A stretch of 64,000 bases of DNA, taken from positions 1 through 64,000 of the forward strand of contig NZ_JAPMOU010000010.1 of assembly GCF_028858535.1 (NCBI RefSeq), written 5' to 3'. The DNA is from Spartinivicinus poritis (lineage in GTDB: Bacteria > Pseudomonadota > Gammaproteobacteria > Pseudomonadales > Zooshikellaceae). The position numbers and the translations under genes are program-made. The first letter of the stretch is position 1, and every line of letters starts with the position of its first letter. Positions 8,131 to 37,992 of the stretch are shown here, piece after piece. Below the pieces are notes generated by a model. That model saw nothing but the letters and a program-made list of their open reading frames with translations, made no database searches and was not told the DNA's origin.

Positions 8131-10440
8131 TTACATAGAAGCAACCGTTGATATATAATTATCTGATTCTGCAACTAACAAATCAGGCTTAATTAAGCCC
8201 AATATACCATATAATAAGCTTTTGTTATTATAGGTTACACGTAGGCTTTTACATTTATTTGGAATTTTGATTGCCATCATTATACCATTAACTGGTACTA
8301 TCTCCGCCCTAACAACATCCTGTGCCTTACCAGTATCACAGTATGCTGTCCAATTTTGAGAATACTCCTGATTTAGAATGACCAACGACGAATCTAGAAT
8401 ATTTGACAGGATATAACCATTTGACGAAAAAGTAATATCGGGCTTTGAACTTCTTTTATTATGAACTTTCTTATTAATCCATTGAGAAAGTTCTGTAGGA
8501 AACAATACATTATGTTTTTCTAAGTGTTTAAGCTGATTAAAATATTCAGGTGTAGTATCTGAAAAGTCTGATATTATTATATTTGAAGGATAGAAAGCCA
8601 TTTCCCAAGGATGCTCTAATTCATACATGTAAACGTCCTTAACTGCAGAAATAGGTTTGAGTTTTGAATTAACATAATCGAATACTGAGCAAAGTACAGT
8701 ATACTCACAAACAGACTTACTCTTAATCAATTGTTTCTCATTGCTAAACTGGGGTAATTTTACAGAACTAATAACATATCGCACACTTCCCATTGACAAC
8801 GCTGGAAAATGGGTACCATTAAGAGAAAAATTTGTTTGCCTATGTGTATGCCAGTTTGATTTCTCCGTTTTACTTAATGTGTGAAACCAAAAAGCAGTCC
8901 TCCTCCAGCTAAATGACGGGCGTACACCATCTAGCATATTCAATCCCCAAAAAATACCAAATTCTGGTTTCGGGTTATAGGTTGAATAAGAGAAAGAGCG
9001 ATGATTTGTGTATTGCTCGGCAGATAGGGTAATTGCTTTTGATGTCGCCCAGGTATTCCCTGATTTTAACTCAGCATAGGTTCTAAACAGCATATTATAT
9101 GATGAAACATAAAGGTGATATGAAAATAGCATACAACATATCACAGGAATAATTTTACCAAAATAATTCAATAATATAATATTTTTTTCACCGCTGGCAG
9201 GCCATTGATAAATATTTACTAACAATGGAATGGCTAAAAGCACAAAAAACTGATGATTAAATATAGCTATCTGATCCCAGCGATAGGTAGAGAAGAAGGG
9301 AAAAACAGAGAGCAGTGAATGACCATAGCTAACTATAAAGAAGAGAACAAAAAGAAAAATAGCTGTTAATTTTTTAAAAATAGCTACGTGAATTACAATA
9401 ATACAACCTAAAATAAGTAGAAGCCCGGTAGGGTTGGGAAACAAACCTGGCTGTTCAATTTTCCCAAGGCTAAATAATCCAGAGTAATAGGCATTCGTGA
9501 AATTTTCTACACCTTTCATGAAAGCCTCTGAAATCGATAAACCATTTCGATTAAATAGTGCGTTAAAATTATCAAATCTGTTGAGACGAGCAGACTCATC
9601 AGCTATAGCGAGAATACTTGATACCTCTGAGATAGAAAATAACATGACAGCAGCTTCAGCAATAATGCAGAAGAAAATTATTTGGCGATAATTCAACTTC
9701 CTATTATCTTTCATTAATAATGCTGCCAATAATAAAAAAGATGGTAGTTGAAAGGCAAATACAACTACCATACTAAATAATGAAGATTGAAGCAGCGCCA
9801 AGAATAACAGTACGGTTAACTTTGAATAAAATGTTAGATTGCCTGACAATACAATCAATGCAAATAGCGACAGAGAAATAAAAGTGTAACCATATCCAGC
9901 TAAAGCCCATCCATAAACATAGGGTTGGCTGTACGCAGCTAGTAGACTACCAATACAACTCAGTGCAGGAATCAAAAATATTGTTGATGACTGCTGAAAC
10001 TTCAGTTGTTGAGTCTGACAAAGAGAGCGAATCCAAAAATATAAAGTAATAAAAAACAGCCACTGCCCAGCTAACCGAAACGTAATCGTTCCCCACTTCA
10101 AACCAATAGCCTGACATAGATAGTGATAAATATTGAGACCATTTGCATGGAAGTTAGAAGATGCTAAAGAAGCACCTCCTGCCATTTGATGATTAAAATC
10201 AAGTGCTCCAGATTTTAAATAGAGCATTTCATGAACAATACCTAGGTCAAACTCGTCGTACCACCCAATCACAGATGCATCAGCGAACAAATAAAATGGA
10301 TGATTTATATACAGAATATAGACTGAGCCAACAATTAAGGCCAATACATCTGCCAGAGTCAGTCGATTTTGGGTAATGCTTTGAAGTATAGATAAGTGAG
10401 TACAATTAGCAACTTTCGCTGTATTATAATTAAAAGCCAT
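8131..10440 (-). CDS. Large membrane protein, YfhO/GT-C-like
   Basis: A 769-residue protein with about ten or more hydrophobic segments in residues 28-480, then a soluble C-terminal part of roughly 280 residues. An acidic pair (D62, E63, with D65) sits in the first extracytoplasmic loop, as in GT-C glycosyltransferases. The C-terminal stretch around residues 690-750 (VILNQEYSQNWTAY, then VPVNGIMMAIKIP) resembles the closing beta-rich segment of YfhO-type proteins. I infer a polyprenyl-phosphate-sugar dependent glycosyltransferase acting outside the membrane. It is one of three large membrane proteins in a row downstream of gtrA- and gtrB-like genes. No acceptor can be named. Confidence 0.6.
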   Translation of the reverse strand: MAFNYNTAKVANCTHLSILQSITQNRLTLADVLALIVGSVYILYINHPFYLFADASVIGWYDEFDLGIVHEMLYLKSGALDFNHQMAGGASLASSNFHANGLNIYHYLCQAIGLKWGTITFRLAGQWLFFITLYFWIRSLCQTQQLKFQQSSTIFLIPALSCIGSLLAAYSQPYVYGWALAGYGYTFISLSLFALIVLSGNLTFYSKLTVLLFLALLQSSLFSMVVVFAFQLPSFLLLAALLMKDNRKLNYRQIIFFCIIAEAAVMLFSISEVSSILAIADESARLNRFDNFNALFNRNGLSISEAFMKGVENFTNAYYSGLFSLGKIEQPGLFPNPTGLLLILGCIIVIHVAIFKKLTAIFLFVLFFIVSYGHSLLSVFPFFSTYRWDQIAIFNHQFFVLLAIPLLVNIYQWPASGEKNIILLNYFGKIIPVICCMLFSYHLYVSSYNMLFRTYAELKSGNTWATSKAITLSAEQYTNHRSFSYSTYNPKPEFGIFWGLNMLDGVRPSFSWRRTAFWFHTLSKTEKSNWHTHRQTNFSLNGTHFPALSMGSVRYVISSVKLPQFSNEKQLIKSKSVCEYTVLCSVFDYVNSKLKPISAVKDVYMYELEHPWEMAFYPSNIIISDFSDTTPEYFNQLKHLEKHNVLFPTELSQWINKKVHNKRSSKPDITFSSNGYILSNILDSSLVILNQEYSQNWTAYCDTGKAQDVVRAEIVPVNGIMMAIKIPNKCKSLRVTYNNKSLLYGILGLIKPDLLVAESDNYISTVASM

Positions 10441-10489
10441 TTTTTAATTAGCCTTATTAATGAAAATATAAATATTAAAATTTAATTAA

Positions 10490-12559
10490 CTAATCGCTTT
10501 TCTTTGAATAAGTCATGTCAGTTTTAATTAGATTTCGGTCTACTTTCCACACAAAATGACTCAAACCATTTTTATTTGTGTTTACTAAATCATATTTTTC
10601 TTTAATGCGATCATAATCAATAGGAAGATACGTCAATTCTTGTTTGGCAATAAATAAATCACCAACATCCTTGTTATATATTTCTGACATTATTTTTTCA
10701 AAGTCAGCTAATAATATAGTTTCAGCTAAGCCTTGACCAGAAATACTAGATGATAAATTTGCCATCGCGTAATAGATTGATTGTCCTTTAGTGAGAATAA
10801 CCGCTGATGTTTTTTCACCAGTTGCTTTTTTAATAAAATCTATATTTTGCTGAATTCTTGAAGAAATAACTGGGCTTAAAGCACCTGCAATACGCTCCTG
10901 CGCTATTTTCCATGTTTGAGGAATAGAGGCAATTAGTGATATTGAAACTAATAAGGAAAATCCAATAGCAGAAACAGGTAACCACAAGTAAACTTTATTT
11001 ATTGTGTTTGATCTAACGGCCCTGAAAATTTTATCAGTTAATATAAAACCAGCAACAATCGCTGGCCAAATAACAAAAGAAAGCACCACATCATGTGAGC
11101 GACCCTGATAATAAGCAAAAAGACCAATTCCTAAAATTCCCAGAAATAACTGTAACTCTGTATAACGAGTTACTTTTCCAACTATATGTCCTCTCATTCC
11201 TACAATGATAGAAGTAAAGTAAATGCATATTACAACCATCCATAAATGGGGATAAGTTGGCATTTGCAACATACCAAACCCCATCATGTAAAAAATCTTG
11301 TGATACTTAATAAGATCTAAAAAGTTTACATTAACTATTGAATCTCTGTATATAATAAATACAATTAAAAGAACATATAAAATGATAGATAACAACGAGA
11401 TACAAATTTTATTAAGTTCTCGTTTGTTGAACGTTTTTAGTATTAGAAGTGGGAAAAAAAATCGCATTGAAATAGTGACCATATAAGCACCAAAAAGTGC
11501 AATACCAGATTCAAGATTCCAAATTAATCCTGTAGCGACTACTAACCCGATTACTATAGTTCTAAACAAGTCTTGCTCATACTTCCATAATGTATAAAAC
11601 AAAAACAGCCCTAATACAGGAAAGAAAAATCGAATTGGAAAAATTTGATAGTACTCCTCAAAGTAAAAATTAGAGCCCATAAACCAAGCTAACGCTATAA
11701 ATGCAAAACATTTTATGGAAGTAGACTTAAGTGATGAATTAACAATACTAAATAATAAAAATGAAGCAATCAACTGCATAATACACATTACAACACTAAA
11801 TGAGACTATCGGATTATTAAATATAGAAAAAAGGGGCTTTAATAGCTCAGCAAACAGTCCATATTGAGATGCAAAGTGGACTAATACGTTCTTACCGTTC
11901 ATCACTTGAGAAACTGAGTAAAAAATAGCTTCAAAGTGAATGTCAGCTTCAAGCATATATGCTTGTCTCACATTCAAAGCAATATTATTAATAATAATGA
12001 ATACAGACACTAGAGTAAATGCTACGATATTTATAATTTTTTTTGTTAAGCTATTTTTTATATCGCTATCAAAATACCTCATATTTAATTTTACTGCTAT
12101 CAGCAAAACAATAAAAACAGCAATTATCAAAGGAATCTGTTTAACATCATATAAACCAAAGTAGTGTTTTTCATCGAGTGGTATTTGAATAACATGATTA
12201 GATATAATAACAGTGAAAGTAAAAAGAGAAAAAACTCCAATTAACACAGAATATAAATTTTCTAGCCTTCTATTTAAAATTTGCTTTTTCGTATAAAAAA
12301 CAGCTGCAATTCCTAAGGGAATAGCTAAAAAAACACCTATTAAAAATGCTAATCGCTCTTGAGGCTCGGGTTTGAGGGGCATCCTATACATTGGTAGAAG
12401 GCTTTTTCTTAATTGACGTATTTCAATTTCATCAAAAATATGATTTTGAAATACATTCAAAAAAATAGCAATCATAAAGATTACTAACAAACATATAATC
12501 ATAGAAGTAGTAATTTGAAAGAATGAACCGGATACAACCATTTGATTGCGGTCAATCAT
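10490..12559 (-). CDS. Large polytopic membrane protein, possible GT-C glycosyltransferase
   Basis: A 689-residue protein with many hydrophobic segments through residue about 590 and a short soluble C-terminal tail. I recognise no named family. The loop around residues 195-235 contains ADIHFEAIFYSVSQVMNGKN and HFASQYGLFAELLKP, a pattern common in uncharacterised GT-C-like membrane proteins of polysaccharide loci. Context beside two similar-sized membrane proteins and a GtrA-like flippase supports a role in transferring lipid-linked sugars. AT-rich like its neighbours. Function is inference only. Confidence 0.45.
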   Translation of the reverse strand: MIDRNQMVVSGSFFQITTSMIICLLVIFMIAIFLNVFQNHIFDEIEIRQLRKSLLPMYRMPLKPEPQERLAFLIGVFLAIPLGIAAVFYTKKQILNRRLENLYSVLIGVFSLFTFTVIISNHVIQIPLDEKHYFGLYDVKQIPLIIAVFIVLLIAVKLNMRYFDSDIKNSLTKKIINIVAFTLVSVFIIINNIALNVRQAYMLEADIHFEAIFYSVSQVMNGKNVLVHFASQYGLFAELLKPLFSIFNNPIVSFSVVMCIMQLIASFLLFSIVNSSLKSTSIKCFAFIALAWFMGSNFYFEEYYQIFPIRFFFPVLGLFLFYTLWKYEQDLFRTIVIGLVVATGLIWNLESGIALFGAYMVTISMRFFFPLLILKTFNKRELNKICISLLSIILYVLLIVFIIYRDSIVNVNFLDLIKYHKIFYMMGFGMLQMPTYPHLWMVVICIYFTSIIVGMRGHIVGKVTRYTELQLFLGILGIGLFAYYQGRSHDVVLSFVIWPAIVAGFILTDKIFRAVRSNTINKVYLWLPVSAIGFSLLVSISLIASIPQTWKIAQERIAGALSPVISSRIQQNIDFIKKATGEKTSAVILTKGQSIYYAMANLSSSISGQGLAETILLADFEKIMSEIYNKDVGDLFIAKQELTYLPIDYDRIKEKYDLVNTNKNGLSHFVWKVDRNLIKTDMTYSKKSD

Positions 12560-12683
12560 TTTATTCTATTATTCCTGAACATAATTATAGTAACCCCCAA
12601 TGCAAAGGATATAAGCCAAGCAAGTTCCTTTTTAAATTATAAAAACAGTAGATATTACCACAGTAAACTTTACCACCTTTAAG

Positions 12684-14693
12684 TTAGGTACAATCCTTAA
12701 TTGAAAAAGAATTATCACTAACACTGATTATCTGCTTAAGGGGCCCTCCTTCTATTAATTGACACACATCATCCCCATCAAAGGACTTTGTATAATATTC
12801 TGGCCAATACCAACAACGATCAGCATCCTCTCTAGCACCAACTAATGGAAGCCCAACTAGCCCAGGTAAAAAAAGAGGTGCGAGCTTACAGCTGGGAGCG
12901 TACTTCCAAAAGATATTGGAATCTTTCTCGACAAAAACCCCTGTTATAGTGTTAGACAATCCAACATTATTATCCTGTAAAAATTCTCGGAGACTTTTTA
13001 TCCAACGTCCCTGGTTAGTACTTTCTACGTATACATTTATATTATTACCAGTGTAACCATCTGTTCCACTATTTCCAATGGAATTAATAAGCCCACTGGC
13101 ATAGCGATTTAATAAGTCATATTGATAGCCTACCTGATATGAAAATAGCCAAAATGTCATAAGAAGCATTACAGATGCTGTAGTATGCAAAACAAAGTTC
13201 AATTTAATTCCATTCAAAGAAGCTGAAAAATGTTTTAACATCAAAAAAGTCAACGAAGAAAGCATCACTAACGCGGAAGTCATCAATATAGGTTGAAAAA
13301 TATAATACCCACTACCACCAGCAACATCTACAACTAAAGGTATCGCAATGGATAAAATAGATAAAAGCATCAAACATTCACAAACGATAAACAACTTGCC
13401 AAGTCTATTACGATTTAGAAAAACAACCAAAAATATAAGTGATAGCCCAAGAAGCATTTTTAAAGCAAAGGCAACTGCAGGATATGTTGCTGTAGAATTA
13501 AACATCTTCAACAGACTCACTTGCAGTGACTGAAAAGGGTTATTTACTAAAGGATATGCAAGAATAATAGCAAGAAAACCAATTCCAAAAACCTTAACAT
13601 TAGCTACCAACCATCTTGCTTGCCCATAAGATAATCTTGCATACAGATAAGAAATAAAAAATAATAAAAAAACACCTACGGGTGGTTTAGTCAATACCAC
13701 CATAAAAACAGATATAAATAGAAATAATAGAATTATTTTATCTTCAGCAAGTTTCTTTATATTGTGAATCATTACAAATACAGAAAAAAAAGCAAGGCTA
13801 ATACCAACATATGCTGTTTCAGATGATATATAAGATTTCCATGGATCCATATAATCCACTAAAGATAAAATAATAAAAGCAACCGCAATCCATAGTAATG
13901 ATAATCCAGCTCCTCCTTTTTTCAACCAAAAAATATCCGCAGAAAGGTATTTACAAACGTATCTTGAAACAGCAACTAGTGCAAATAAGAAAACAGGGAA
14001 GAAAAAGACCTGTGTTGTGACAAAAAGACCATATATAGACCTAACTTCAGATAAATGTGAGATTTTTCCTATAAGTGCTAAAGCAAAAAAATGATAACTA
14101 ATTGGCGCAAAAGCATCAATTCCTAATGAAGATACATTGAACTTTGCTACCATCGTTGATAAAGCAGAAAACATTAAAGGATCATGCTGTAAATAGCCAA
14201 GATCAAGATACTCAGCCCCAAATAGATTAGCACTCATATACCTATTAAATAGAACAAAGAATACCATTGCTAATAAATAGGAAAATATACAGTGAAGAGG
14301 GGCAATAAAAATCAACTCTCTATTTTTTAATAAATTACTAATAAAAAAAGCAACGACCGTAATAAAATACCCTAAAAGCAATATATCATCAACCCATAAG
14401 AACCACCCTCCCAATATGTCAAATACTCTGGCAGGCAGTAATAGTAAAAATAGTAAAAGTAAAGGAAAAACTTTTTTTTCAATAAAAGATAAAACACTAT
14501 TTGAAAAGATATGTAACGAGAGCTGACCCAAAACAAATGACAGGTAAAGAAAATTAACAATGTAAAACCACTCCAGCTCCCGCATTTCATACGTATTTCT
14601 AACCTGAAGTGATAAATATATAATGCTGGAAGAAAAAGCCAAGAAGAAAACTAATACGCAAAAATCATTTTTATCTGCACTTCGAAAAAACAC
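12684..14693 (-). CDS. Large polytopic membrane protein, possible GT-C glycosyltransferase
   Basis: A 669-residue protein with about a dozen or more hydrophobic segments and a C-terminal soluble tail of roughly 110 residues holding several Cys residues. The extracytoplasmic loop near residues 155-200 (EYLDLGYLQHDPLMFSALS, then GIDAFAPISYHFFALAL) resembles those of uncharacterised GT-C-like proteins. Translation probably begins at the GTG at 14693, because AAAGGAG lies seven bases upstream. It follows the gtrA-like gene by about 70 bases. Function is inferred from context. Confidence 0.45.
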   Translation of the reverse strand: MFFRSADKNDFCVLVFFLAFSSSIIYLSLQVRNTYEMRELEWFYIVNFLYLSFVLGQLSLHIFSNSVLSFIEKKVFPLLLLFLLLLPARVFDILGGWFLWVDDILLLGYFITVVAFFISNLLKNRELIFIAPLHCIFSYLLAMVFFVLFNRYMSANLFGAEYLDLGYLQHDPLMFSALSTMVAKFNVSSLGIDAFAPISYHFFALALIGKISHLSEVRSIYGLFVTTQVFFFPVFLFALVAVSRYVCKYLSADIFWLKKGGAGLSLLWIAVAFIILSLVDYMDPWKSYISSETAYVGISLAFFSVFVMIHNIKKLAEDKIILLFLFISVFMVVLTKPPVGVFLLFFISYLYARLSYGQARWLVANVKVFGIGFLAIILAYPLVNNPFQSLQVSLLKMFNSTATYPAVAFALKMLLGLSLIFLVVFLNRNRLGKLFIVCECLMLLSILSIAIPLVVDVAGGSGYYIFQPILMTSALVMLSSLTFLMLKHFSASLNGIKLNFVLHTTASVMLLMTFWLFSYQVGYQYDLLNRYASGLINSIGNSGTDGYTGNNINVYVESTNQGRWIKSLREFLQDNNVGLSNTITGVFVEKDSNIFWKYAPSCKLAPLFLPGLVGLPLVGAREDADRCWYWPEYYTKSFDGDDVCQLIEGGPLKQIISVSDNSFSIKDCT

Positions 14694-14762
14694 CTTGCTA
14701 CTCCTTTAAATAATCAATTATCGAAATATACCTGTCACTTTTGGTAAAATACCCATTATATT

Positions 14763-15143
14763 TTAGGAAAAAGCCCAGAACTTTAACAAAATATAACTAA
14801 CCAATGGTATTAAAATACAAACAATCAAAGCTGCCATAACAGGATGTTCTTCAAGCCCTGCAGACTGATTAACCAGTGATATAAGAACTAACATAATGAT
14901 ATTGGTAACAACAAATCTAGCTGGTGTACGTTCACTTCTTTTCCCCTTAAAAGTCAAGCTTGCATGAAGTTTATAAGAGATAAGCACCGCAATTAAATAT
15001 GAAATCACACCACTATAAATTGGAGGAACTTCAATCAACAGAGTTAATATTATAAATAAAACAAAATAACCAAAGGTATTTAGCAAACCAACAAGACCAA
15101 ATACTATTAATTCTTTTGAATATTTGACTGAATCAAATAACAT
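14763..15143 (-). CDS. GtrA-like membrane protein (PF04138 type)
   Basis: Small protein of about 126 residues with four hydrophobic segments. The first one carries the family-like ELIVFGLVGLLNTFGYF and a later loop reads SYKLHASLTFKGKR, matching the GtrA family's conserved YxxxxxFTF-type loop. GtrA proteins are thought to flip bactoprenol-linked sugars. I chose the ATG at 15143, since a TTG-initiated form from 15176 would add a non-family N-terminus overlapping the upstream gene. A GtrB-type transferase lies further upstream in the same operon. Confidence 0.85.
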   Translation of the reverse strand: MLFDSVKYSKELIVFGLVGLLNTFGYFVLFIILTLLIEVPPIYSGVISYLIAVLISYKLHASLTFKGKRSERTPARFVVTNIIMLVLISLVNQSAGLEEHPVMAALIVCILIPLVSYILLKFWAFS

Positions 15144-15163
15144 AACCAATGTAAAGAAAAAAA

Positions 15164-16360
15164 TTAGTCTAAACAAAGCAGAGCATCGAATAATCCAAGT
15201 TTTTTTAAAGATACCTCAAGCCCATATTCAAGCACCATACTCTTCAATGCTAAAATCCTACTTTTAAGTTCCTGATTATATATAGGTTCCATCACAGAGA
15301 CTAGTTCAGTAAGCGAATAATCAACCTCATCATTTTCAGATTGATTACCAGTTATTTTTTTTTCAACCCATGGAAAAAGCTGGTGATAATACTTATCCCT
15401 AACAGAGTCTATTAACACATAACTTTGGAGAGCAGATTCTATATTTAATCGTTCATCAAAAATGCCTGTTGTAGATGCTTGAAGGAAAGCTGTCAGCATC
15501 GCGGATAATGGTTTCTTAGTAAAATTCCAAGTAGGATCTGCGGACACCTGCTCTCCCCTCCAGGTAACCGTGCCTGGCTCCTCGGAAAAATCAAGCTCAA
15601 CTTTTTCCTGACCTATATCTAGGCTCAAATAGCGCTTCCTTTTTTGTCCATTCCTTTCAAGCTTTACTAAGCAGCGCCTACCATCAGCCATCAAACCCAA
15701 CGTCAGTTTAGCACCTCCTTTACGTACCTTTAAATCGGTTAAATCAACTTTTCCTTTTGGAAAAAAAAGTTTTATAATTGGCAATATATGTGGAATCCAG
15801 TCAACAAAAACGGGAACTCCTCTATCATAATGCTTATTTTCACCAAATCGCTCTTCATTCTTTGGATCAACCCAATGAAATTCCAACCCCTCAGGTTTAC
15901 CCAAATGACTAACCCTATTACAAAATCTATGGATATAATTTGCAAATAAGAATACCTGTGCTGCAGCAAGTGTCCTTGTAGAATTTTGAGCAAGCTTTAT
16001 AAGGCTTTTCACTTTGTTAGCACTTTTTGACACAGGCTTTTCAACTAGCACAGGAACCCCTGATAAAAGTGCGTATTCCACCGAGCAATAATGATCACGA
16101 GCTGCATTCGCAACAATCATTACACTTGGAGAAGTATTAAAAGTTGGCCATTTTGAACATAGTTTTACTCGTTTTTCTAATTTTTTTTCTCTTAGCCACT
16201 TTTTTACATTGAGTGTATTATGTTGTGTATGAATAGATATATTGGTATCACTAGCAGTTAATTTACATAACTCACCTAAAATTACTCTAGCCCACCTCCC
16301 ACCTCCAATAACCGCAACACTTTCAGGAAACGAACTTGAGGAAAGAATAATATTTGACAT
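15164..16360 (-). CDS. Gfo/Idh/MocA-type oxidoreductase
   Basis: Probable NAD(P)-dependent sugar oxidoreductase of 398 residues. The N-terminal Rossmann motif VAVIGGGRWARV lies at residues 15-26, and PVLVEKPVSKS (the family's EKP motif) near residue 108. The middle part (WVDPKNEERFGENKHYDRG, then DWIPHILP) fits the C-terminal alpha/beta domain; the last 70 residues are less familiar. It sits between a C-methyltransferase and a GtrA-like gene, nine bases after the former. A role as keto-reductase of the CDP-linked C-methylated sugar is plausible but inferred. Confidence 0.7.
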   Translation of the reverse strand: MSNIILSSSSFPESVAVIGGGRWARVILGELCKLTASDTNISIHTQHNTLNVKKWLREKKLEKRVKLCSKWPTFNTSPSVMIVANAARDHYCSVEYALLSGVPVLVEKPVSKSANKVKSLIKLAQNSTRTLAAAQVFLFANYIHRFCNRVSHLGKPEGLEFHWVDPKNEERFGENKHYDRGVPVFVDWIPHILPIIKLFFPKGKVDLTDLKVRKGGAKLTLGLMADGRRCLVKLERNGQKRKRYLSLDIGQEKVELDFSEEPGTVTWRGEQVSADPTWNFTKKPLSAMLTAFLQASTTGIFDERLNIESALQSYVLIDSVRDKYYHQLFPWVEKKITGNQSENDEVDYSLTELVSVMEPIYNQELKSRILALKSMVLEYGLEVSLKKLGLFDALLCLD

Positions 16361-16369
16361 TAGCAGTTA

Positions 16370-17605
16370 TTAATCCAGTACTTGAAAATCCTCTTCACTT
16401 AAAATATCGATAACTTGACCCGAATAACCATGCTCCAGTAAATATTCACGTATTTCTGCAGAGATATGCCAGGCAAGGTTTAAAACTGGAGTGCTAGACT
16501 CTAACCTATCAAAAAGCTCATTATCTGACAGGATAGGTATACGGGTACCAGGCAAGTAAGTACCAATTTTCATTGAACCAGGCTTTTCATACACAGCGGA
16601 TATATGGTTATCATCTAGCTCTAATAATTTAACCAAAATTGCTGCACGTCCAGGGAAAGCCTTAGCTTTTAATTTCCCAAATTTTCCTACAAGATCTACT
16701 ATCTCATTTCTTTTTTTCTGACGCCAGTTTTCAATGTTACTGCTTAATAATGTAAAGCTACTAAAAAAATGTTTCTCTTGTTCTTTTACTTCGATGCAAG
16801 CAGGAGAAACAGCAGGTTTTTGTCCGCTTACTACACTAAAATATACTCTAATATTACCGCCATAACGAGCAGGAAAATCAACATCAACAAGCTCCATACC
16901 AAGTAACTTTGCTATGTAAACGAATGAACTATAACTATAAGTACGCGGATGCTCATGGTAGAAGGTATCAAATTGCTTTCCTTTCAAGACAGATCCTAAG
17001 TAATGGTTTTCAATCACTATTGTCGTCTCAGGCCCCACTAACTTCTTCAATGATGAAATGACCTCAGCCAAATTCTCTATATGTGCAAAAACATTAGTAA
17101 AAACAATAATACTCGGAAATCCGTGTTTTAACAAAATCTCCTCTGATAGTTTCTCAGAAAGATATTGATTATAGGCACAATGGCCTTGTTCTATAGCATC
17201 CAAACAGGCATCGGTTGGTTCAACCCCAACGGTGATTCCTCCCTTGTCTCTAAAAAAGTTCAGTAAGCTTCCATCATTACAACCAATATCTAAAACTACT
17301 TTTTTCTTCAATTCACCAAAGCGCTGTTCACACTCATCAACAAGATTGACCATTCCAGAAAGCACATCAGCGGTAAACCGAGAACGGTAATGATAATTAC
17401 TAGGAAAAAGTTTTGCCTTAGGTACCTGAAATCGCTGATGAGCCGTTTGACAAATATTACAAAACATTATTTCAATTGGATAATTCACACACTGACGATC
17501 TTCACCAACATTTACCAAATCATCACACATCGGGTGTTCACCCAAATCGAGTACAGATTCTAAATTTTTATTTCCACACACTTCGCACTTACTAATTTCT
17601 AACAT
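16370..17605 (-). CDS. SAM-dependent sugar C-methyltransferase (NovU/TylC3 type)
   Basis: Three-part protein of about 411 residues: an N-terminal zinc-binding domain with C7xxC10 and C49xxC52, a central SAM-binding domain with VVLDIGCNDGSLLNFF near residue 100, and a C-terminal domain typical of sugar C-methyltransferases. Members methylate a carbon next to a keto group of a nucleotide sugar. The gene follows rfbG directly; I chose the ATG at 17605, which has AGGTG a few bases upstream, over a GTG at 17614. The likely substrate is CDP-4-keto-6-deoxyglucose, giving a branched 6-deoxyhexose; the methylated carbon is unproven. Confidence 0.88.
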   Translation of the reverse strand: MLEISKCEVCGNKNLESVLDLGEHPMCDDLVNVGEDRQCVNYPIEIMFCNICQTAHQRFQVPKAKLFPSNYHYRSRFTADVLSGMVNLVDECEQRFGELKKKVVLDIGCNDGSLLNFFRDKGGITVGVEPTDACLDAIEQGHCAYNQYLSEKLSEEILLKHGFPSIIVFTNVFAHIENLAEVISSLKKLVGPETTIVIENHYLGSVLKGKQFDTFYHEHPRTYSYSSFVYIAKLLGMELVDVDFPARYGGNIRVYFSVVSGQKPAVSPACIEVKEQEKHFFSSFTLLSSNIENWRQKKRNEIVDLVGKFGKLKAKAFPGRAAILVKLLELDDNHISAVYEKPGSMKIGTYLPGTRIPILSDNELFDRLESSTPVLNLAWHISAEIREYLLEHGYSGQVIDILSEEDFQVLD

Positions 17606-17614
17606 TAGACACAC

Positions 17615-18685
17615 CTAAAGATTAATATAATCATTAATTTGTTGAAGTGTTATAGAATTTAAATCACCATCTTCAACTTCAACTTGATACCATTCAACTG
17701 TTTTTTTAATTGCATCAAATAACTTCCATTGTGGCTCCCATCCCAGCTTAGAGAAAGCCTTTGAACAATCTAATTTGAGATAAAATGCTTCATGAGGTTG
17801 ATTATCAGCATCTATTGACCAAGTAATTCGCTCATCCCAAATTTTTACCATTGCTTCTACAATCCATTGTACTTCTTTTGCTTCTTGATCTCTTGGGCCA
17901 AAATTCCATGCTTCTGAAAAATCATTTCCCTCAGTAAATAGTTTCTCTGCCAGTAGTAAATAACCTGAAAGAGGCTCCAAAACATGTTGCCAAGGACGAA
18001 TGGCATATGGATTACGCAAAATAATATCTCTATTTTTCCTCAAAGAACAAATGATATCAGGTATTAACCTATCTTCAGCCCAGTCTCCACCACCAATAAC
18101 ATTACCCGCCCGTACTGAAGCGATTCCTGTCTGATGAGAATCATACTGTGTTTTAGGAAAGAAACTATTTCTATAAGAGCTTATTAACAACTCGGCTGCA
18201 CCCTTACTACTACTATAGGGATCATACCCACCAAGCTGATCTATTTCCCGATAGCCCCAAGCCCATTCTTGATTCTCATAACATTTGTCTGTTGTCACCA
18301 TAATGGCAGAGCGAACAGTATTTATACAACGAATTCCTTCTAAAACACTTAAGGTTCCCATTACGTTAGTTCCATAAGTATCAACAGGATCTATGTATGA
18401 ACGTCTCACTATAGACTGAGCAGCTAGATGAAAAACAATTTCAGGTTTGAATTCACTAAATATATCTTTAATTTTTTGAGTATCTCTAATATCTGCAAAG
18501 ATATTTACTATTCCATCATCTAGTTTGGCTTTTTCATAAAAAGAAGGAGTTGTTGGAATACCTAGCGATACGCCAATTATTTCTGCACCATAGTGTTTAA
18601 GCCAAACTGTCAACCAACTGCCTTTGAAGCCCGTATGTCCTGTGATTAATACTTTCTTACCATTCCAAAACGCTTTATCTACCAT
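17615..18685 (-). CDS. rfbG: CDP-glucose 4,6-dehydratase RfbG
   Basis: Converts CDP-D-glucose to CDP-4-keto-6-deoxy-D-glucose with NAD. The N-terminus reads [20 protein letters not shown], diagnostic for this family, followed by [10 protein letters not shown], the VTTDKCYEN segment and the [10 protein letters not shown] motif near residue 160. About 356 residues, full length. I favour the ATG at 18685; another ATG lies at 18694. Either start overlaps the end of rfbF. No rfbH (3-dehydrase) accompanies it, so 3,6-dideoxyhexose synthesis is unlikely from this locus alone. Confidence 0.95.
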
Positions 18686-19449
18686 AATTTCCATGGCGCC
18701 TGGCCGCCATCCCAGAGATTTTCTAAGTATTTTTTATCTCTCAATGTGTCCATTGGCTGCCAGAAACCATGATGCTCATAGGCAGACATTTCTCCTTGTT
18801 GTGCTAAAATCTCCATTGGATATTCTTCCCATACAGTCTCATCCCCTTCAATCAGTCCTAAAACCTTTGGAGATAGAACAAAAAAGCCACCATTGATCAT
18901 ACTTCCATCACCTTTAGGCTTTTCTTTAAAACTTCTCACTTTACCACCGTACATATCAAGTGCTCCAAATCGCCCTGGAGGATAGACCGCTGTCAACGTT
19001 GCCATTGTCTGCTGTAATTTATGAAACTCTATTAGTTTTTTGATATTGACATCACTAAGACCATCACCATATGTAAAGCAAAATGCTTCATCATCCTCCA
19101 AATAGGATCTAACCCTTTTTAAACGTCCACCAGTCATTGTATTTTCACCAGTGTCAACTAATGTAACTGTCCATGGTTCAGCACGCTTGTAATGCACATC
19201 CATTTGATTGCCATCCATTCGGAATGTGACATCAGACATATGAAGAAAATAATTTGCAAAGTACTCCTTAACCACAAATCCCTTATAACCACAACAAACA
19301 ATAAAATCATTTATTTCATATGATGAATAAATTTTCATGATATGCCAAAGGATTGGTTTTCCACCGATCATAATCATCGGTTTTGGTCTAAACTCAGATT
19401 CTTCGCTAATTCTAGTACCATAACCACCAGCTAATATAACCGCCTTCAT
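18679..19449 (-). CDS. rfbF: Glucose-1-phosphate cytidylyltransferase RfbF
   Basis: Forms CDP-glucose from CTP and glucose 1-phosphate, the entry step for CDP-linked deoxysugars. The 256-residue protein starts [18 protein letters not shown] with the pyrophosphorylase signature, and has [26 protein letters not shown] and GGFFVLSP segments as in RfbF. A strong ribosome site (AGGAGG region) lies just upstream of the ATG. It overlaps rfbG, so both are coupled. The next upstream gene is a methyltransferase. Confidence 0.95.
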
Positions 19450-19483
19450 TCCCCCTCCTTTATTAGATTAACAACCTCAAAAA

Positions 19484-20203
19484 TCAGCTTTTTTTAGCTA
19501 CAACATAATACTGAGCACCGAATGGAATTCGGGCTAATAATTTATCCAACCAACGAAAGAAATAGGATGAAAATGGCGTAAACAATATGAACATTCCAAA
19601 TGATGACTTATAACCACATCGGAGTAATAGCTTTTTTAGACTACTCTGTCTTACCAAAACTGCATCGCGATCCATCTCACAACTATTTACGACTTTTAAT
19701 GTAATTGGATTAAGTGGGTTATGCTCAAATATAACAAGTACTCCTCCGGGCTTAAGCACCCTTTTCAGTTCACAAAAAAAAGTTTCTCTTTCAGAAGGAG
19801 GTACATGATGGACAACACAAATTGCAAAGACTAAATCAAAATCATTATCTTTATAAGGAAGTGTATTTCCGTCATAAGTTTTATACATCACATCATTGTT
19901 ATTAGTACGTGCAATATCAATAACTTCTCCAGCAATATCAACTCCATGAAGCTTAATCAGTGTATTACGGGATTTTAAATACGGATGAATCAGGCCATGT
20001 CCACATCCAACATCTAGTACCTTAAAAGGCGACTCTCTATTTTGTATATTATCAATAATGTCCAGTAAGTAATCCGCTTTTACTTTTGTAAAAAAATCCT
20101 GCCCCTGACCAATAAATGAAATTGCTTCATTTATATCCTTTGAGTAAGTGTCTTTATATGCATCAAATTCTGCTTTATCATTATAATTTTTTGTCCCACC
20201 CAT
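19484..20203 (-). CDS. Class I SAM-dependent methyltransferase
   Basis: A 239-residue protein with the SAM-binding motif VLDVGCGHGLIHPYL near residue 62, GVDIAGEVIDIA after it and a motif-IV region DFDLVFAICVVHHVPPSE near residue 122, all typical of Methyltransf_11-type enzymes. The C-terminal third is hydrophobic-rich (FILFTPFSSYFFRWLDK), which may bring it to a membrane or lipid-linked substrate. It lies between gtrB-like and rfbF genes. Substrate unknown; O-methylation of a sugar or the lipid-linked intermediate is possible. Confidence 0.8.
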   Translation of the reverse strand: MGGTKNYNDKAEFDAYKDTYSKDINEAISFIGQGQDFFTKVKADYLLDIIDNIQNRESPFKVLDVGCGHGLIHPYLKSRNTLIKLHGVDIAGEVIDIARTNNNDVMYKTYDGNTLPYKDNDFDLVFAICVVHHVPPSERETFFCELKRVLKPGGVLVIFEHNPLNPITLKVVNSCEMDRDAVLVRQSSLKKLLLRCGYKSSFGMFILFTPFSSYFFRWLDKLLARIPFGAQYYVVAKKS

Positions 20204-20215
20204 ACCTTTCTCCCA

Positions 20216-21217
20216 TTATTCCTCTAGGCTTCTAGCTGTTGGCAAGGCATTTAAATTTATAGCTGACTCAATAATCGTTATAGGCCTTTGTTTGAGCTGT
20301 TGGTATATACGACTAATATATTCACCAATAATCCCCAAAAAAATTGCATTTAATGAAATGCCAAAAAGGATTAATATCACTTCCGTGGCAAAACCAGAAG
20401 GCCAGTTGAAACCAAAAGCTATTCGTCCCAGCAAGTAGATTGATGCTAAACAAGCCGTTACAATAGCAACAAAGAAGCCCAAGTATGATGCTAGCCTCAA
20501 AGGAACGGTAGAGTGGTTGACAACACCATCAATAGCCAATGAAAATAATTTTACTAGAGGGAATTTACTTTTATCGTGCTCTCTTGATTTTCGAGTATAG
20601 GGAATACCAATTTGATTGGCAGCAATTGACGAAATTAACCCTCTCACATAAGGCGTAGCATCATGAATAGTGACTAGTTGATCGAGAATTTCTCGAGAAA
20701 TCAGACGAAAGTCACCACCATCTGCAATGAGGTTATCTTCAGAAATTTGCATAAGAAAACGGTAAAAAATTTTCCTTGCACCCTGTAATATACGTCCCTC
20801 AGGTCTCTTTGTTCTAATACCAACTACAACATCATGCCCCTTTTTCCAGTATTCTATTAATTGCACGAATAATGCTGGTGGATCTTGAAGATCACAGTCT
20901 AACTGTATTGCTGCATCTCCCTTTGCTAGTCTGTATCCCGTCAAAAGGGACTTATTAAAACCAAAGTTTTTTGTAAAACGAGCAACACGAACTCTTTTAT
21001 CTGTAGCGGTTATATTTTTTATTTTTTCATAGGTTGCATCAGTACTATGATTGTCAGTAAAAATAATCTCAAAATCATAATTATTATTAAGATCATCAGT
21101 AAAAACCTTACAAACTGCTAAGTAAGCTCTCTCAATATTATTCTCTTCGTTATAAACAGGTATGATAACTGATATCAGCTCTTTTCTTCTAAATCTATCA
21201 CTTCGGGTAAAATCCAT
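20216..21217 (-). CDS. GtrB-like polyprenyl-phosphate glycosyltransferase (GT2)
   Basis: Membrane enzyme of 333 residues that likely transfers a sugar from a nucleotide donor to undecaprenyl phosphate. The GT2 domain begins SVIIPVYNEENNIE (about residue 16), with the metal-binding segment QLDCDLQDPP near residue 100. Two C-terminal hydrophobic segments (about 240-268 and 278-300) match the GtrB/DPM-type architecture. A very strong ribosome site (AGGAGGGG) precedes the ATG at 21217. With the GtrA-like gene and large GT-C-like proteins nearby, it completes a possible three-part Gtr-type modification route. Confidence 0.9.
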   Translation of the reverse strand: MDFTRSDRFRRKELISVIIPVYNEENNIERAYLAVCKVFTDDLNNNYDFEIIFTDNHSTDATYEKIKNITATDKRVRVARFTKNFGFNKSLLTGYRLAKGDAAIQLDCDLQDPPALFVQLIEYWKKGHDVVVGIRTKRPEGRILQGARKIFYRFLMQISEDNLIADGGDFRLISREILDQLVTIHDATPYVRGLISSIAANQIGIPYTRKSREHDKSKFPLVKLFSLAIDGVVNHSTVPLRLASYLGFFVAIVTACLASIYLLGRIAFGFNWPSGFATEVILILFGISLNAIFLGIIGEYISRIYQQLKQRPITIIESAINLNALPTARSLEE

Positions 21218-21259: not shown

Positions 21260-22357
21260 TCAGTTAGGCAACTTATAAATTATAAGACTGTCATTGAAGT
21301 GCTTTACATTTCTTCCATATGCACACAAGAAATCAGCTTTACCAACTACATTTGGAAATTTAAATGTTGGGTATTCAAAAATACGTAGAGGTAATCCTCC
21401 ACACTCGGTTCTTAAAATTTCTACGACTGAGTCGTCTGAACAAAGCACATATATGCCAGCTCCATCTTTAGCTAAGACTGGTGCAGGTTTAGTATCAAAC
21501 CATGCTAATAGATTCTTTCTACTTGCTCTTTCCGGCTCAAGGGTGGTGGAAAAAAAATGATAACCATTTATTTTTGAAAAATATATACTACTGCCAGGAA
21601 TTTCTACAATTAATTCCTCGTCTTTACTACCCTGCAAGTCAACACAGCGATAAACCGCATTCTTTGATAATTGAGTGTCTGTTGCCCAAATTATTTTGTC
21701 GTAGGAATATTTTAACCAGCAAGCTCTATACTTCTGCTCAGGAGAAAAGAATTGAGTAACTTTGGAAAAATTTTCTTCAGCTTTCCAAATCGTCGGGCCA
21801 TTATCAAAGTCTCCTGTCAGAATCCATACACAATGGTTATAATTGTCTGGTACAATCGCGTGTATGTGATTCATGATTTTCTCGGGAAATGTATGAACAA
21901 TTTCCCAGTTTCCAGACATTCTTCGCCAAATTGAAACAGGTTTCATGTCCGGGTTTGAAAAATAATCACCTGCATATATAGCATTTTCAAAACCCTTTAC
22001 GTTTTTACATATAGTTGTATCCAAAAAATATTTTTTTGGTTCATAGTCAAGTTCACATATACAGTTGTTGTCATCATTCAGGCGAAATATCCCATCTCTA
22101 GTACTAAATATTGTTGCTCCATCATCAGTGATATTTCCCCATAAAACACTTCTTCTGAACATGGATCTTGTAAAGTAGTTGGTTCTAAATATTTTTGTTT
22201 TTAGGGAGCCTGGTATGGTTGTGACGGGTACAACATTGCCAGTTCTAAGATTGAGCTTGACGAGTTTGTTGGCTTTTTGTGCCAATAAAGTGATCTCCGT
22301 TTGAAGGATGGGGACCAAGCCTTTATAAGAGGCCTCAAGTTTCGGTTGTGTTGACAC
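21260..22357 (-). CDS. Unknown protein, probable beta-propeller
   Basis: A 365-residue protein without a signal peptide or membrane segment. Short repeating blades can be seen: phrases such as LWGNITDDGATIFSTRDGIF, IHAIVPDNYNHCVWILTGD and KIIWATDTQLSKNAVYRC each pair a variable loop with a W/hydrophobic strand, as in BNR or Kelch-like propellers. The phrase IHAIVPDNYNHCVWILTGD resembles hypothetical propeller proteins near glycosyltransferases. No catalytic residues could be assigned. It is transcribed just ahead of the gtrB-like gene (42-base gap). Sugar binding or hydrolysis is speculative. Confidence 0.5.
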   Translation of the reverse strand: MSTQPKLEASYKGLVPILQTEITLLAQKANKLVKLNLRTGNVVPVTTIPGSLKTKIFRTNYFTRSMFRRSVLWGNITDDGATIFSTRDGIFRLNDDNNCICELDYEPKKYFLDTTICKNVKGFENAIYAGDYFSNPDMKPVSIWRRMSGNWEIVHTFPEKIMNHIHAIVPDNYNHCVWILTGDFDNGPTIWKAEENFSKVTQFFSPEQKYRACWLKYSYDKIIWATDTQLSKNAVYRCVDLQGSKDEELIVEIPGSSIYFSKINGYHFFSTTLEPERASRKNLLAWFDTKPAPVLAKDGAGIYVLCSDDSVVEILRTECGGLPLRIFEYPTFKFPNVVGKADFLCAYGRNVKHFNDSLIIYKLPN

Positions 22358-22397
22358 AGTTAAAACTCAATCAAAGATTTAAATTTTAAAGGTAATG

Positions 22398-23009
22398 TTA
22401 GGTGCTTTTTTTTGACCAGATCAAGATGTAATACTTTTTCTTGCTCATGCCTTCAATTTTTTTGGCCAAAAACTCTGCCTTACCACCGATAAGGACTTTT
22501 AATGGATTTTTTAAGTAGTAGTGTGAAACAAGTTCGCAGGATTTATACACTCCATAGCCCGTTGTTTCGAGAAATTCATTGACGTCACGATCAGGTGAGT
22601 TTATGTTTGGGTGTCTGTTTTCAAACATATCCAGTGCCGGCTTGGTTGGGATTGCCATTATAAGATTCTCGGAATCACACGCGCCTAAATATTTCTGAAC
22701 CTCAGTTATATCTGACAGCAAGTGAAACATGTTCATAAAAAACACGACTTCACATACAGGGATTCCCTCAGAAAAACTTGGAGACGTTAGGTCTCTAGAA
22801 AAATATTTCAATGATTCGTATTGAGGCGTGACTGTTTTCATATCTACACCGTAGCCATGCTCGATTAGACCTTTTTGCACTAAGCCCGACAAAAAAGCCC
22901 CATTTCCAGACCCAATATCAAGGGCCTTATTAATCTGCTTGTTATCAGCACCAAACCAACTGCAAATTTGATCAAGCCAGATGTAGTAATTATATTGTGC
23001 AAAATTCAT
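22398..23009 (-). CDS. Class I SAM-dependent methyltransferase
   Basis: A 203-residue protein with ALDIGSGNGAFLSGL (SAM motif I) near residue 30, GYGVDMKTVTP (motif II) and CEVVFFMNMFHLLSD (motif IV) near residue 88. Its ATG overlaps the stop codon of the Wzx-like gene by four bases, so the two are translationally coupled. It is smaller than most sugar methyltransferases. Substrate unknown; a role in modifying the repeat unit is inferred from context. Confidence 0.75.
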   Translation of the reverse strand: MNFAQYNYYIWLDQICSWFGADNKQINKALDIGSGNGAFLSGLVQKGLIEHGYGVDMKTVTPQYESLKYFSRDLTSPSFSEGIPVCEVVFFMNMFHLLSDITEVQKYLGACDSENLIMAIPTKPALDMFENRHPNINSPDRDVNEFLETTGYGVYKSCELVSHYYLKNPLKVLIGGKAEFLAKKIEGMSKKKYYILIWSKKST

Positions 23010-24238
23010 CCTGAAGCCCCATATGGTTTTACCAATTGGTCGTTAACCTTTAAGTTAAAAATTGGAAAAAAACTAAACAAACATACTAATGATGACAAAA
23101 TAGAGACAAAAAATGGATAATAAAACTCTATTTCCAAAGCATAAAATGAAACATATCCACTAGCAACTATTATAATAAAATATAGAACTTGCTTAAAATA
23201 GAAGGCCTTAAATCGCCTGTATGATTCTTTCCAAAAAAAGGCATCTTGAAAAAGGCTTAAACAGGTTCCGGCAAGAACACTAAACGTCACTAAAAGCACA
23301 ACTCTGGCCCATACTCCAATTTCTGGGCTAAGGACGAATGTCATCATAAAGCACAACAAACTTACGCATAGTGCTAATAACATTTTAAATCTAAACTGCT
23401 TAAAAATAACTCTAACAAATATCACGGGCCGATTAGCTAGTAACTTTCGTCTAGGAGCGATAATCAATGCATCAAACAACAAATATCCGCCTCCAACAAT
23501 CATTGATGTGGAAACAAGATAGGGGGATACACTAGGGAGAAGTAGGCTGGCCAATAATTTGTCTGAATTCTTTACTGCCCCAGTAAAAAAACTAGCGACA
23601 TAATAGTCTTTTGATCTAGAAATCAAACTAATACCTTTAATCAGGTTGATACCTGCAACACTAAAGCCAAAGCATTGCCATACAGACAAGGTAAAAATCA
23701 TGAATCCAATAATAATTGAAACGACTAGCGCCTCTTCAGCTGAAAGGAGCAAGAGCGAAAAGACAAATAGTAAACACCAACAGTTCCTAATGATGCCCCA
23801 CAAAAACCAATTTTTGAATTGCTTGGTAAATTCACACCAGCGCATAATTTCATCGAGTATTTTATCCATCATGCAAAGAATAACCATCACCACTGAAAGG
23901 TTCATATTAATTCCCGATTGGTAGCAGTAGAGAACCGATATCGAACCCAACAAAATACAAAGCATGAGCAAAAGAACTAAAATTGCTGATAAATAGTTCA
24001 AAAAAACTTTCGAGGAACTGTCTTTCTGTCCATTTGGTGAGCTATAAAGATCCTTATGTACAGGAATTGATGCTAGTGCCGTAACCATTGGGAGAGAAGC
24101 AAGGATAAAAGTAAATAACACTATCTCTGTGGGTGACGCAATATGTACTGAGAGAATTAATGAAAGTGGTTTCAATCCAACAAAAGTTACGCGCCCAAAT
24201 AATAATATGATCGAGGGCGACAACCGGACTTTATTCAT
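23006..24238 (-). CDS. Polytopic membrane protein, probable Wzx-like flippase
   Basis: About 410 residues with roughly 11-12 evenly spaced hydrophobic segments and very short loops, the pattern of MATE/MOP-type polysaccharide flippases. I see no strongly conserved motif, so the assignment rests on topology and on the position in a locus that already has Wzz- and Wzy-like proteins and otherwise lacks a Wzx. The ATG at 24238 begins MNKVRLSPS; a TTG lies six bases upstream. The start lies only seven bases from the end of an IS481-like remnant, so its original leader may have been altered. Confidence 0.6.
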   Translation of the reverse strand: MNKVRLSPSIILLFGRVTFVGLKPLSLILSVHIASPTEIVLFTFILASLPMVTALASIPVHKDLYSSPNGQKDSSSKVFLNYLSAILVLLLMLCILLGSISVLYCYQSGINMNLSVVMVILCMMDKILDEIMRWCEFTKQFKNWFLWGIIRNCWCLLFVFSLLLLSAEEALVVSIIIGFMIFTLSVWQCFGFSVAGINLIKGISLISRSKDYYVASFFTGAVKNSDKLLASLLLPSVSPYLVSTSMIVGGGYLLFDALIIAPRRKLLANRPVIFVRVIFKQFRFKMLLALCVSLLCFMMTFVLSPEIGVWARVVLLVTFSVLAGTCLSLFQDAFFWKESYRRFKAFYFKQVLYFIIIVASGYVSFYALEIEFYYPFFVSILSSLVCLFSFFPIFNLKVNDQLVKPYGASG

Positions 24239-24244
24239 ATACAA

Positions 24245-30311: not shown

Positions 30312-30321
30312 AATATATTTA

Positions 30322-32678: not shown

Positions 32679-32681
32679 AAC

Positions 32682-35076: not shown

Positions 35077-35098
35077 GGCTACCTACATAAACTATAAA

Positions 35099-36942: not shown

Positions 36943-36969
36943 ATTAGCCCTTTTATCGTGATTATACCC

Positions 36970-37992
<1,023 letters not shown>

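Follow-up and report, generated by a model that had tools for sequence, protein, structure and literature searches.

A putative Gtr-type route for a CDP-derived, methyl-branched 6-deoxyhexose in Spartinivicinus poritis

Known Gtr systems and the Spartinivicinus poritis operon

The Gtr systems of O-antigen modification in Shigella and Salmonella comprise a conserved GtrB and a variable transferase, encoded together with GtrA (PMC3688519, PMC7198725; these and the other articles cited here, with PMC3849446, PMC5156392 and PMC12826051 as further literature basis, are drawn on in part). GtrB of Synechocystis transfers glucose from uridine diphosphate (UDP)-glucose to undecaprenyl phosphate (PMC4728340). 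Its Asp43 hydrogen-bonds N3 of UDP, and the same position is the uracil N3 contact in GtrB (PMC5526996) and in SpsA. Here we analyse the first 64,000 nucleotides of contig NZ_JAPMOU010000010.1 of Spartinivicinus poritis (the window; source genome G000, 6.83 Mb in 160 contigs), where a minus-strand operon at 8131-21217 resembles these systems in encoding GtrA and GtrB along with a variable polytopic transferase. It differs from them in having its own cytidine diphosphate (CDP)-sugar pathway with a C-methyltransferase, Asn in place of the base-contact Asp, an extra methyltransferase and, by position, three large membrane proteins. The operon probably encodes a Gtr-type system dedicated to a CDP-derived, methyl-branched 6-deoxyhexose, with a GtrB from a predicted CDP-sugar clade. 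In order of transcription, its features are as follows.

20216-21217, minus strand: gtrB, GtrB-type polyprenyl-phosphate family 2 glycosyltransferase (GT2) of the predicted CDP (Asn) clade; PF00535, DxD motif D107/D109, about two transmembrane (TM) helices by hydropathy, position in the tree
21050-21052, minus strand: codon AAT of GtrB Asn56, aligned (chain offset 23) with Synechocystis GtrB Asp43, the uracil N3 contact (PMC5526996)
19484-20203, minus strand: class I S-adenosylmethionine-dependent methyltransferase, GtrB partner and putative sugar O-methyltransferase, between gtrB and rfbF; PF08241
18679-19449, minus strand: rfbF, glucose-1-phosphate cytidylyltransferase; TIGR02623, 460 bits (cut-off 300)
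17615-18694, minus strand: rfbG, CDP-glucose 4,6-dehydratase; TIGR02622, 506 bits (cut-off 278)
16370-17614, minus strand: sugar-nucleotide 3-C-methyltransferase of the TylC3/TcaB9 type; PF08421, PF13489 and PF08484, all above gathering thresholds
15164-16360, minus strand: Gfo/Idh/MocA enzyme, putative C-methyl-sugar ketoreductase; PF01408, 28.1 bits (gathering threshold 24), EKP motif E107-K108-P109
14763-15176, minus strand: gtrA, GtrA-like flippase, about 4 TM segments by hydropathy; PF04138, 61.8 bits (gathering threshold 26.1)
12684-14693, minus strand: large membrane protein, about 13 TM segments by hydropathy, no Pfam family above cut-off, possible second transferase or polymerase
10490-12559, minus strand: large membrane glycosyltransferase candidate with a GT-C-like fold (AlphaFold2 model and Foldseek), the candidate GtrC of the system
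8131-10440, minus strand: large membrane protein, about 10 TM segments, labelled YfhO-like in the initial annotation and linked to the system by position only

The window GtrB has the GT2 domain, DxD motif and two TM helices of its family, and gtrA lies in the same operon with five genes between them. Its best NCBIfam match is PgfS (209 bits, below the cut-off of 500). The genes of the operon all run on the minus strand and either overlap slightly or are separated by no more than 124 bp, a spacing that suggests co-transcription. The initial annotation had placed this gene set (a GtrB GT2, GtrA, rfbF, rfbG, the C-methyltransferase, the Gfo/Idh/MocA enzyme and three membrane proteins) at 10490-21217, and its coordinates and families check out. 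Two of the large membrane proteins lie inside that stretch and the third outside it; the class I methyltransferase had not been listed, and with it O-methylation of the sugar may occur too. The proposed co-transcription agrees with the tight spacing, and promoter-like sites (77 versus 75 in shuffles) and terminator-like sites (12 versus 9) occur at about the same frequency as in shuffled sequence.

The GtrB base-contact residue and its link to rfbF

The closest solved relative of the window GtrB is Synechocystis GtrB sll0501 (PDB 5EKP; expectation value (E) 3.7e-56), with which it shares homology over nearly the whole length and the DxD motif. The two belong to different clades of the family, and Asp43 of the Synechocystis enzyme aligns with Asn56 in the window. 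A classical Gtr donor enzyme for UDP-glucose carries Asp at the uracil N3 contact; the window sequence reads Asn there. Asp would accept a hydrogen bond from uracil N3-H, while Asn could donate one to cytosine N3 and accept one from N4.

In a tree of 132 GtrBs (quick method, motif columns removed), sequences with Asn (63) and Asp (69) lie on the two sides of one branch, with a Shimodaira-Hasegawa-like approximate likelihood ratio test (SH-aLRT) value of 97. The base contact separates the clades completely (Asn in 63/63, Asp in 69/69) and is the sole such column of those compared. The predicted CDP (Asn) clade was sampled in Proteobacteria, in a cyanobacterial and a myxobacterial phylum sample and in others; it appears to be spread over several phyla and dedicated to CDP-6-deoxyhexoses. 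Because the tree contains one Asp/Asn change, locus counts are not independent events, and treating them as such was rejected. The switch happened a single time in the sample; it is the whole clade that is linked to CDP genes, and the residue is a candidate cause of the change in donor.

The association was read from GtrB itself. A search with the A2 profile of GtrB in 397 + 369 genomes returned 163 matches, of which 98 neighbourhoods were read (L114, L193-L289), taken from the highest scores downward with some omitted and many at contig ends. With rfbF counted at 150 bits or more, Asn-type GtrB occurred with rfbF in 26 neighbourhoods and without it in 3, and Asp-type GtrB with rfbF in 1 and without it in 68 (Fisher p 2.5e-19, ignoring shared descent); three Asp rows and one Asn row come from stretches shorter than 10.5 kb, and L211 lies on the same contig as L079, a locus selected by its C-methyltransferase. 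Among the misses, rfbF of L206 is found on the contig slightly beyond the stretch that was read, and L250 lies on a 9.2 kb contig with rfbF elsewhere in the genome. Genome-wide, rfbF exceeded its cut-off in 5 of 6 Asn genomes that had none in the stretch, versus 2 of 22 Asp controls (genome of L242 excluded).

A blind test used two other phyla (175 + 168 genomes), in which the residue was read, a prediction written and only then rfbF located. Residues were read in 58 matches (30 of the first phylum's longer list and 28/28 of the second), giving 15 Asn and 43 Asp. One of the Asn sequences belonged to a genome selected by its C-methyltransferase and was excluded; rfbF was then located in the other 14 Asn genomes and in 9 of the Asp genomes. 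All 14 Asn genomes have rfbF, 13 above cut-off and G1014 just 0.75 bits under (299.5 versus 300.25). It lies within 10 kb of GtrB in 10 of the 14 Asn genomes and in none of the 9 Asp genomes (Fisher p 0.0016). Both types were read in eight genomes (G686, G732, G785, G235, G288, G228, G875, G1014), and each time rfbF lies close to the Asn copy but not to the Asp copy; in G875, its distance is 21 kb to the Asp GtrB and 5 kb to the second GtrB, which reads Asn. A ninth genome (G423; L036, L132) is alike and was picked via its C-methyltransferase.

Loci collected by one scan with the C-methyltransferase pair (80 kept of 132 confirmed, from many phyla) agree with this pattern. Thresholds in these loci were at least 150 bits for rfbF, 180 bits for rfbG and 200 bits for GtrB, or 524 bits in profile A2 for the close set. 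GtrB is present in 35 of the 80, with Asn in 34 and Asp in 1, and 31 of the 34 Asn loci hold rfbF; in L074, L077 and L092 it is not in the locus, yet is above cut-off in the genome. These loci are not independent for this comparison, since the gene used to pick them has its own link to rfbF.

Two neighbourhoods of Asn-type GtrB have unusual contents. L206 (2736-10436) places Asn-type GtrB and GtrA after a NeuB-like enzyme, an acetolactate-synthase-like thiamine enzyme and a short-chain dehydrogenase/reductase; the thiamine enzyme might form a two-carbon branch on a CDP-sugar, of which yersiniose is an example. In L200, Asn-type GtrB, rfbF and rfbG adjoin four large membrane proteins in a row, of about 630 codons each.

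The predicted sugar, its recurrent gene set and the membrane proteins

Both RfbF and RfbG exceed curated cut-offs, as would be expected of a CDP-6-deoxyhexose pathway. Relatives of the C-methyltransferase in the PDB include D-mycarose 3-C-methyltransferase (E 7e-38) and TcaB9 (E 1.3e-27). In the C-methyltransferase, residues C10, C13, C52, C55, Y74, H178, Y219, E221 and H222 are present in the window and in 80/80 relatives; they correspond to the Zn ligands and to what we take to be the catalytic Tyr, His, Tyr, Glu and His of TcaB9. The Zn cysteines and these five residues are thus shared with the 3-C-methyltransferases TylC3, TcaB9 and MtmC, which act on deoxythymidine diphosphate (dTDP)-sugars for antibiotics, whereas the window enzyme sits with CDP-glucose enzymes and a Gtr route. 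The EKP motif of the Gfo/Idh/MocA enzyme occurs in 32/32 sequences, window included. No protein of the operon matched a 3,5-epimerase family in the family scan.

On the best reading, the product is an undecaprenyl-phosphate-linked 3-C-methyl-6-deoxyhexose, perhaps O-methylated. By family, RfbF would form CDP-glucose and RfbG CDP-4-keto-6-deoxyglucose, to which the C-methyltransferase would add a methyl group, most likely at C3 beside the 4-keto group as in TylC3/TcaB9 relatives. The Gfo/Idh/MocA enzyme probably reduces the keto group, and O-methylation of the sugar, either ahead of lipid loading or following it, is probably the task of the second methyltransferase. GtrB would transfer the sugar from its CDP donor to undecaprenyl phosphate, a donor class suggested by genome association and residue logic; GtrA would flip the lipid-linked sugar, and outside the membrane the GT-C protein at 10490-12559 would hand it on to an acceptor, either glycan or protein.

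The initial annotation had argued against 3,6-dideoxyhexoses on the ground that no rfbH is present. The two DegT-family genes tested in the window (4428-5603, 189 bits; 35785-36942, 125 bits) both fall below the RfbH cut-off of 423, so the dideoxyhexose route was set aside for these window genes, the rest of the genome lying outside the search.

CDP-vinelose, the CDP derivative of 6-deoxy-3-C-methyl-2-O-methyl-L-talose from Azotobacter vinelandii, is a CDP-linked 6-deoxyhexose that bears a single C-methyl and a single O-methyl group and would suit the window gene set, with the difference that the operon proteins include no 3,5-epimerase family match. Virenose of Coxiella burnetii lipopolysaccharide likewise involves a TylCIII-type C-methyltransferase and a 3-C-methyl-6-deoxyhexose for a surface glycan, and its pathway was proposed to run via guanosine diphosphate (GDP)- or dTDP-sugars (PMC3539893); the parts of that article drawn on here make no mention of a Gtr or CDP route for virenose. 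Literature joining GtrB, CDP-glucose and undecaprenyl phosphate was not found, nor was any on vinelose, in a search that mostly left out subscription papers and is no proof that such work is unpublished.

The gene set recurs. Loci collected by the C-methyltransferase alone contain rfbF in 65/80 and rfbG in 55/80 cases, and 13/80 hold a close relative (above 255 bits) of the partner methyltransferase at 19484-20203, which is 39-51% identical to these 13 partners. In 12 of the 13, GtrB scores at least 524 bits with the A2 profile; in the thirteenth (L054) a GtrB of 526 bits lies past the locus edge, in L130. Also in 12 of the 13, rfbF, rfbG and gfo are present, with gene order and strands shuffled; in L092, rfbF is not nearby, but elsewhere in its genome. 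The core set thus occurs in 12 of the 80 C-methyltransferase loci, all from Proteobacteria, with L019, L057 and L069 as near-copies (GtrB 95-98% identical). By title, all 13 loci are proteobacterial, including Bradyrhizobium, Mesorhizobium, Nitrobacter, Microvirga, Afipia, Rhodocyclaceae and Legionellales. All 13 also encode a polytopic protein of about 590-750 codons, a raw count uncorrected for chance occurrence. L198, found by GtrB alone, has rfbF, rfbG, the partner methyltransferase, gfo, a weak GtrA match and a more distant C-methyltransferase (190 bits). The recurrence of this set across genomes in varying gene order goes beyond chance. The proposal that a CDP-glucose, CDP-4-keto-6-deoxyglucose and C-methyl pathway is tied to a Gtr lipid route gains from this recurrence and from the Asn of GtrB.

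Other C-methyltransferase loci are built differently. In ten (L015, L017, L020, L023, L024, L027, L038, L041, L051, L067), the gene immediately upstream of the C-methyltransferase gene encodes a non-GtrB GT2 of about 330-360 residues, and no GtrB reaches 200 bits; this GT2 reads S-D-N at the base contact and could represent a cytoplasmic route for the same CDP-sugar. L035 and L053 (M. kyorinense, M. elephantis) have rfbF, rfbG and the C-methyltransferase together, with no GtrB match in the locus. L032, on a contig labelled Altiarchaeales archaeon, holds a C-methyltransferase relative (61% in the best segment), with neither rfbF nor a good rfbG match on the contig; this gene could reflect transfer or contamination.

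The partner methyltransferase family was also searched alone in 397 genomes of one order and found in 16 besides the query's own. Among the 16 new neighbourhoods (L114-L129), only L114 has both rfbF and rfbG. In 10 of the 15 others GtrB or GtrA is nearby, and neither was seen in L117, L123 and L125-L127. The ten (L115, L116, L118-L122, L124, L128, L129) place the family near Asp-type or divergent GtrB and/or GtrA with no rfbF, and pairing of GtrB with this methyltransferase thus exists outside the CDP route. The idea that the family marks a C-methyl sugar was therefore rejected, because it also occurs beside Asp-type GtrB without rfbF. The enzyme is probably a general Gtr partner and perhaps O-methylates the transferred sugar.

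The protein at 10490-12559 was modelled with AlphaFold2 from six sequences, with a mean predicted local distance difference test score (pLDDT) of 62.5 and a predicted template modelling score (pTM) of 0.66. The top 16 Foldseek rows are all GT-C entries or translocon complexes holding oligosaccharyltransferase (OST), at probability 1.00; matches include OST, PglB, DPY19 and AftA (E 1.6e-6 to 2e-3, TM-scores by query 0.36-0.43, root-mean-square deviation 7-15 Å). This is consistent with a GT-C fold, as a modest match, and gives the operon a candidate polytopic GT-C transferase. Its family occurs in L052, L054/L130, L061, L072 and L212, with a 147-residue edge fragment in L235, and rfbF, rfbG and Asn-type GtrB are present in all loci with the family. 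In 369 genomes of the class, no further convincing relative was found outside its own genome; one short match contains five stops. For 12684-14693, a single-sequence model was useless (pLDDT 42), and no relatives were detected among the loci searched. No Pfam family exceeds its cut-off in any of the three large proteins, and neither 12684-14693 nor 8131-10440 matched the family profile of 10490-12559, so kinship of the three detectable by this profile was rejected. The suggestion of several large transferases is thus partly borne out, with 10490-12559 as the candidate, 12684-14693 as a possible second one and 8131-10440 linked by position. In relatives, the neighbouring membrane proteins belong to PMT_2 (L019) or DUF6044 (L021, L068), with no Pfam family in L036 and L092.

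The region around the operon is a large glycan cluster that also includes Rml-like genes, a DegT aminotransferase gene, a gene for an initiating sugar-phosphate transferase and a pseudaminic acid set; GC content in the operon is about 31-37%, versus about 42-47% to the right of 42 kb. Just upstream of gtrB, at 21260-24244, are three genes for proteins of 365, 203 and 412 residues, the last with about 11 TM segments; neither a Pfam family nor convincing relatives were found for them among the loci searched. The pseudaminic acid set at 29247-37974, on the same strand, has PseB, PseC and PseI above cut-offs, a cytidylyltransferase and a GNAT-fused protein; HisF-like, GATase and WbuX genes in the same stretch suggest an acetamidino group. 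The 18 kb to the right of the window (L013), searched by phmmer with 15 window proteins only, gave no match.

Alternative explanations and significance

Several observations weigh against the interpretation above. It rests on genes, sequences and models, and the sugar and enzyme activities are predicted. The Asp/Asn change occurs once on the tree, which amounts to one independent pair, and at least 17 other columns also strongly separate the clades. Many other GT2 enzymes, dTDP-rhamnose GT2s among them, also have Asn at the base contact, and among non-GtrB GT2s the link of Asn to rfbF is weak (44 N/67 versus 9 N/25); Asn as a general CDP mark across GT2 was rejected, the trend being weak and confounded. 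Individual loci depart from the pattern: L066 is a C-methyltransferase locus with Asp-type GtrB and no rfbF, L242 has Asp-type GtrB beside rfbF and rfbG, and L207 has an Asn-type GtrB with two overlapping frames that are rfbF-like (177 bits) and rfbG-like (209 bits), below cut-offs. No rfbF was found in the genome of L207 at E 1e-60, and the nearest families of both frames are still the CDP-glucose pair. In the blind test, rfbF lay about 11 kb away in 1 and on another contig in 3 of the 14 Asn genomes, and exceeded its cut-off somewhere in 4 of the 9 Asp genomes. The Gfo/Idh/MocA enzyme has weak family scores only, and no more than 5 of the 13 related loci showed a GtrA. The partner methyltransferase family is no guide to the identity of the sugar, since its members also neighbour Asp-type GtrB where rfbF is lacking. 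Confidence in the GT-C model is moderate, its TM-scores stay below 0.5, and fold support is limited to one of the three large membrane proteins.

It is improbable that the operon joins two neighbouring modules, a Gtr for a UDP-sugar such as glucose and a CDP-C-methyl pathway feeding a cytoplasmic glycosyltransferase, for example the group 1 enzyme at 6824-8056. The setting would allow this, since the large glycan cluster of the window contains another transferase close by, and at least ten GtrB-less loci have another GT2 directly upstream of the C-methyltransferase, so a cytoplasmic route is possible elsewhere. However, the set of GtrB, partner methyltransferase, rfbF, rfbG, C-methyltransferase and gfo stays together while its order varies. 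GtrBs of this clade are linked to rfbF also in the search that used GtrB alone, and they differ in the residue that reads the base. We give some weight, as the lesser possibility, to the view that the Asn clade does use CDP-sugars while Asn56 is a clade marker and other residues set the donor. The single change on the tree, the many other differing columns and the frequency of Asn in other GT2s speak for it; the complete separation at Asn56, which is a known uracil N3 contact, and the bonding that Asn could make with cytosine N3 and N4, unlike Asp, speak for the residue itself.

The acceptor could also be a protein, with O- or C-glycosylation of secreted proteins by a GT-C enzyme like OST or DPY19, which we consider rather unlikely. 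OST, PglB and DPY19 are the closest folds of 10490-12559, the best NCBIfam match of GtrB is PgfS, named there only as a glycosyltransferase, and the partner in relatives is a PMT_2 or DUF6044 protein (three loci tested). Against this, the glycan-acting arabinosyltransferases AftA and Emb were matched too (Emb at weaker E-values), and the operon lies within a large surface-glycan cluster. With these alternatives weighed, a dedicated Gtr-type system for a CDP-derived, methyl-branched 6-deoxyhexose is still the interpretation that we prefer; it appears to act like a Gtr and, by its donor feature, would not be a classical UDP-glucose Gtr.

Beyond this operon, we lean towards an ancient split of GtrB into a UDP (Asp) and a CDP (Asn) clade, in which the latter would load an unrecognised class of CDP-6-deoxyhexoses, some methyl-branched, onto undecaprenyl phosphate and one residue would predict the donor nucleotide. 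The branched CDP sugar had been put forward as new; CDP-linked C-methyl sugars are known molecules, and it is their use by a separate GtrB clade that looks new here. Annotation of polyprenyl-phosphate glycosyltransferases goes by fold, and sequence usually does not reveal their donor sugar. If true, a residue that splits GtrB into UDP and CDP clades would allow prediction of donor class in many genomes and would offer a directly testable enzyme, and CDP-derived, methyl-branched 6-deoxyhexoses would join the sugars that are attached after membrane flipping.

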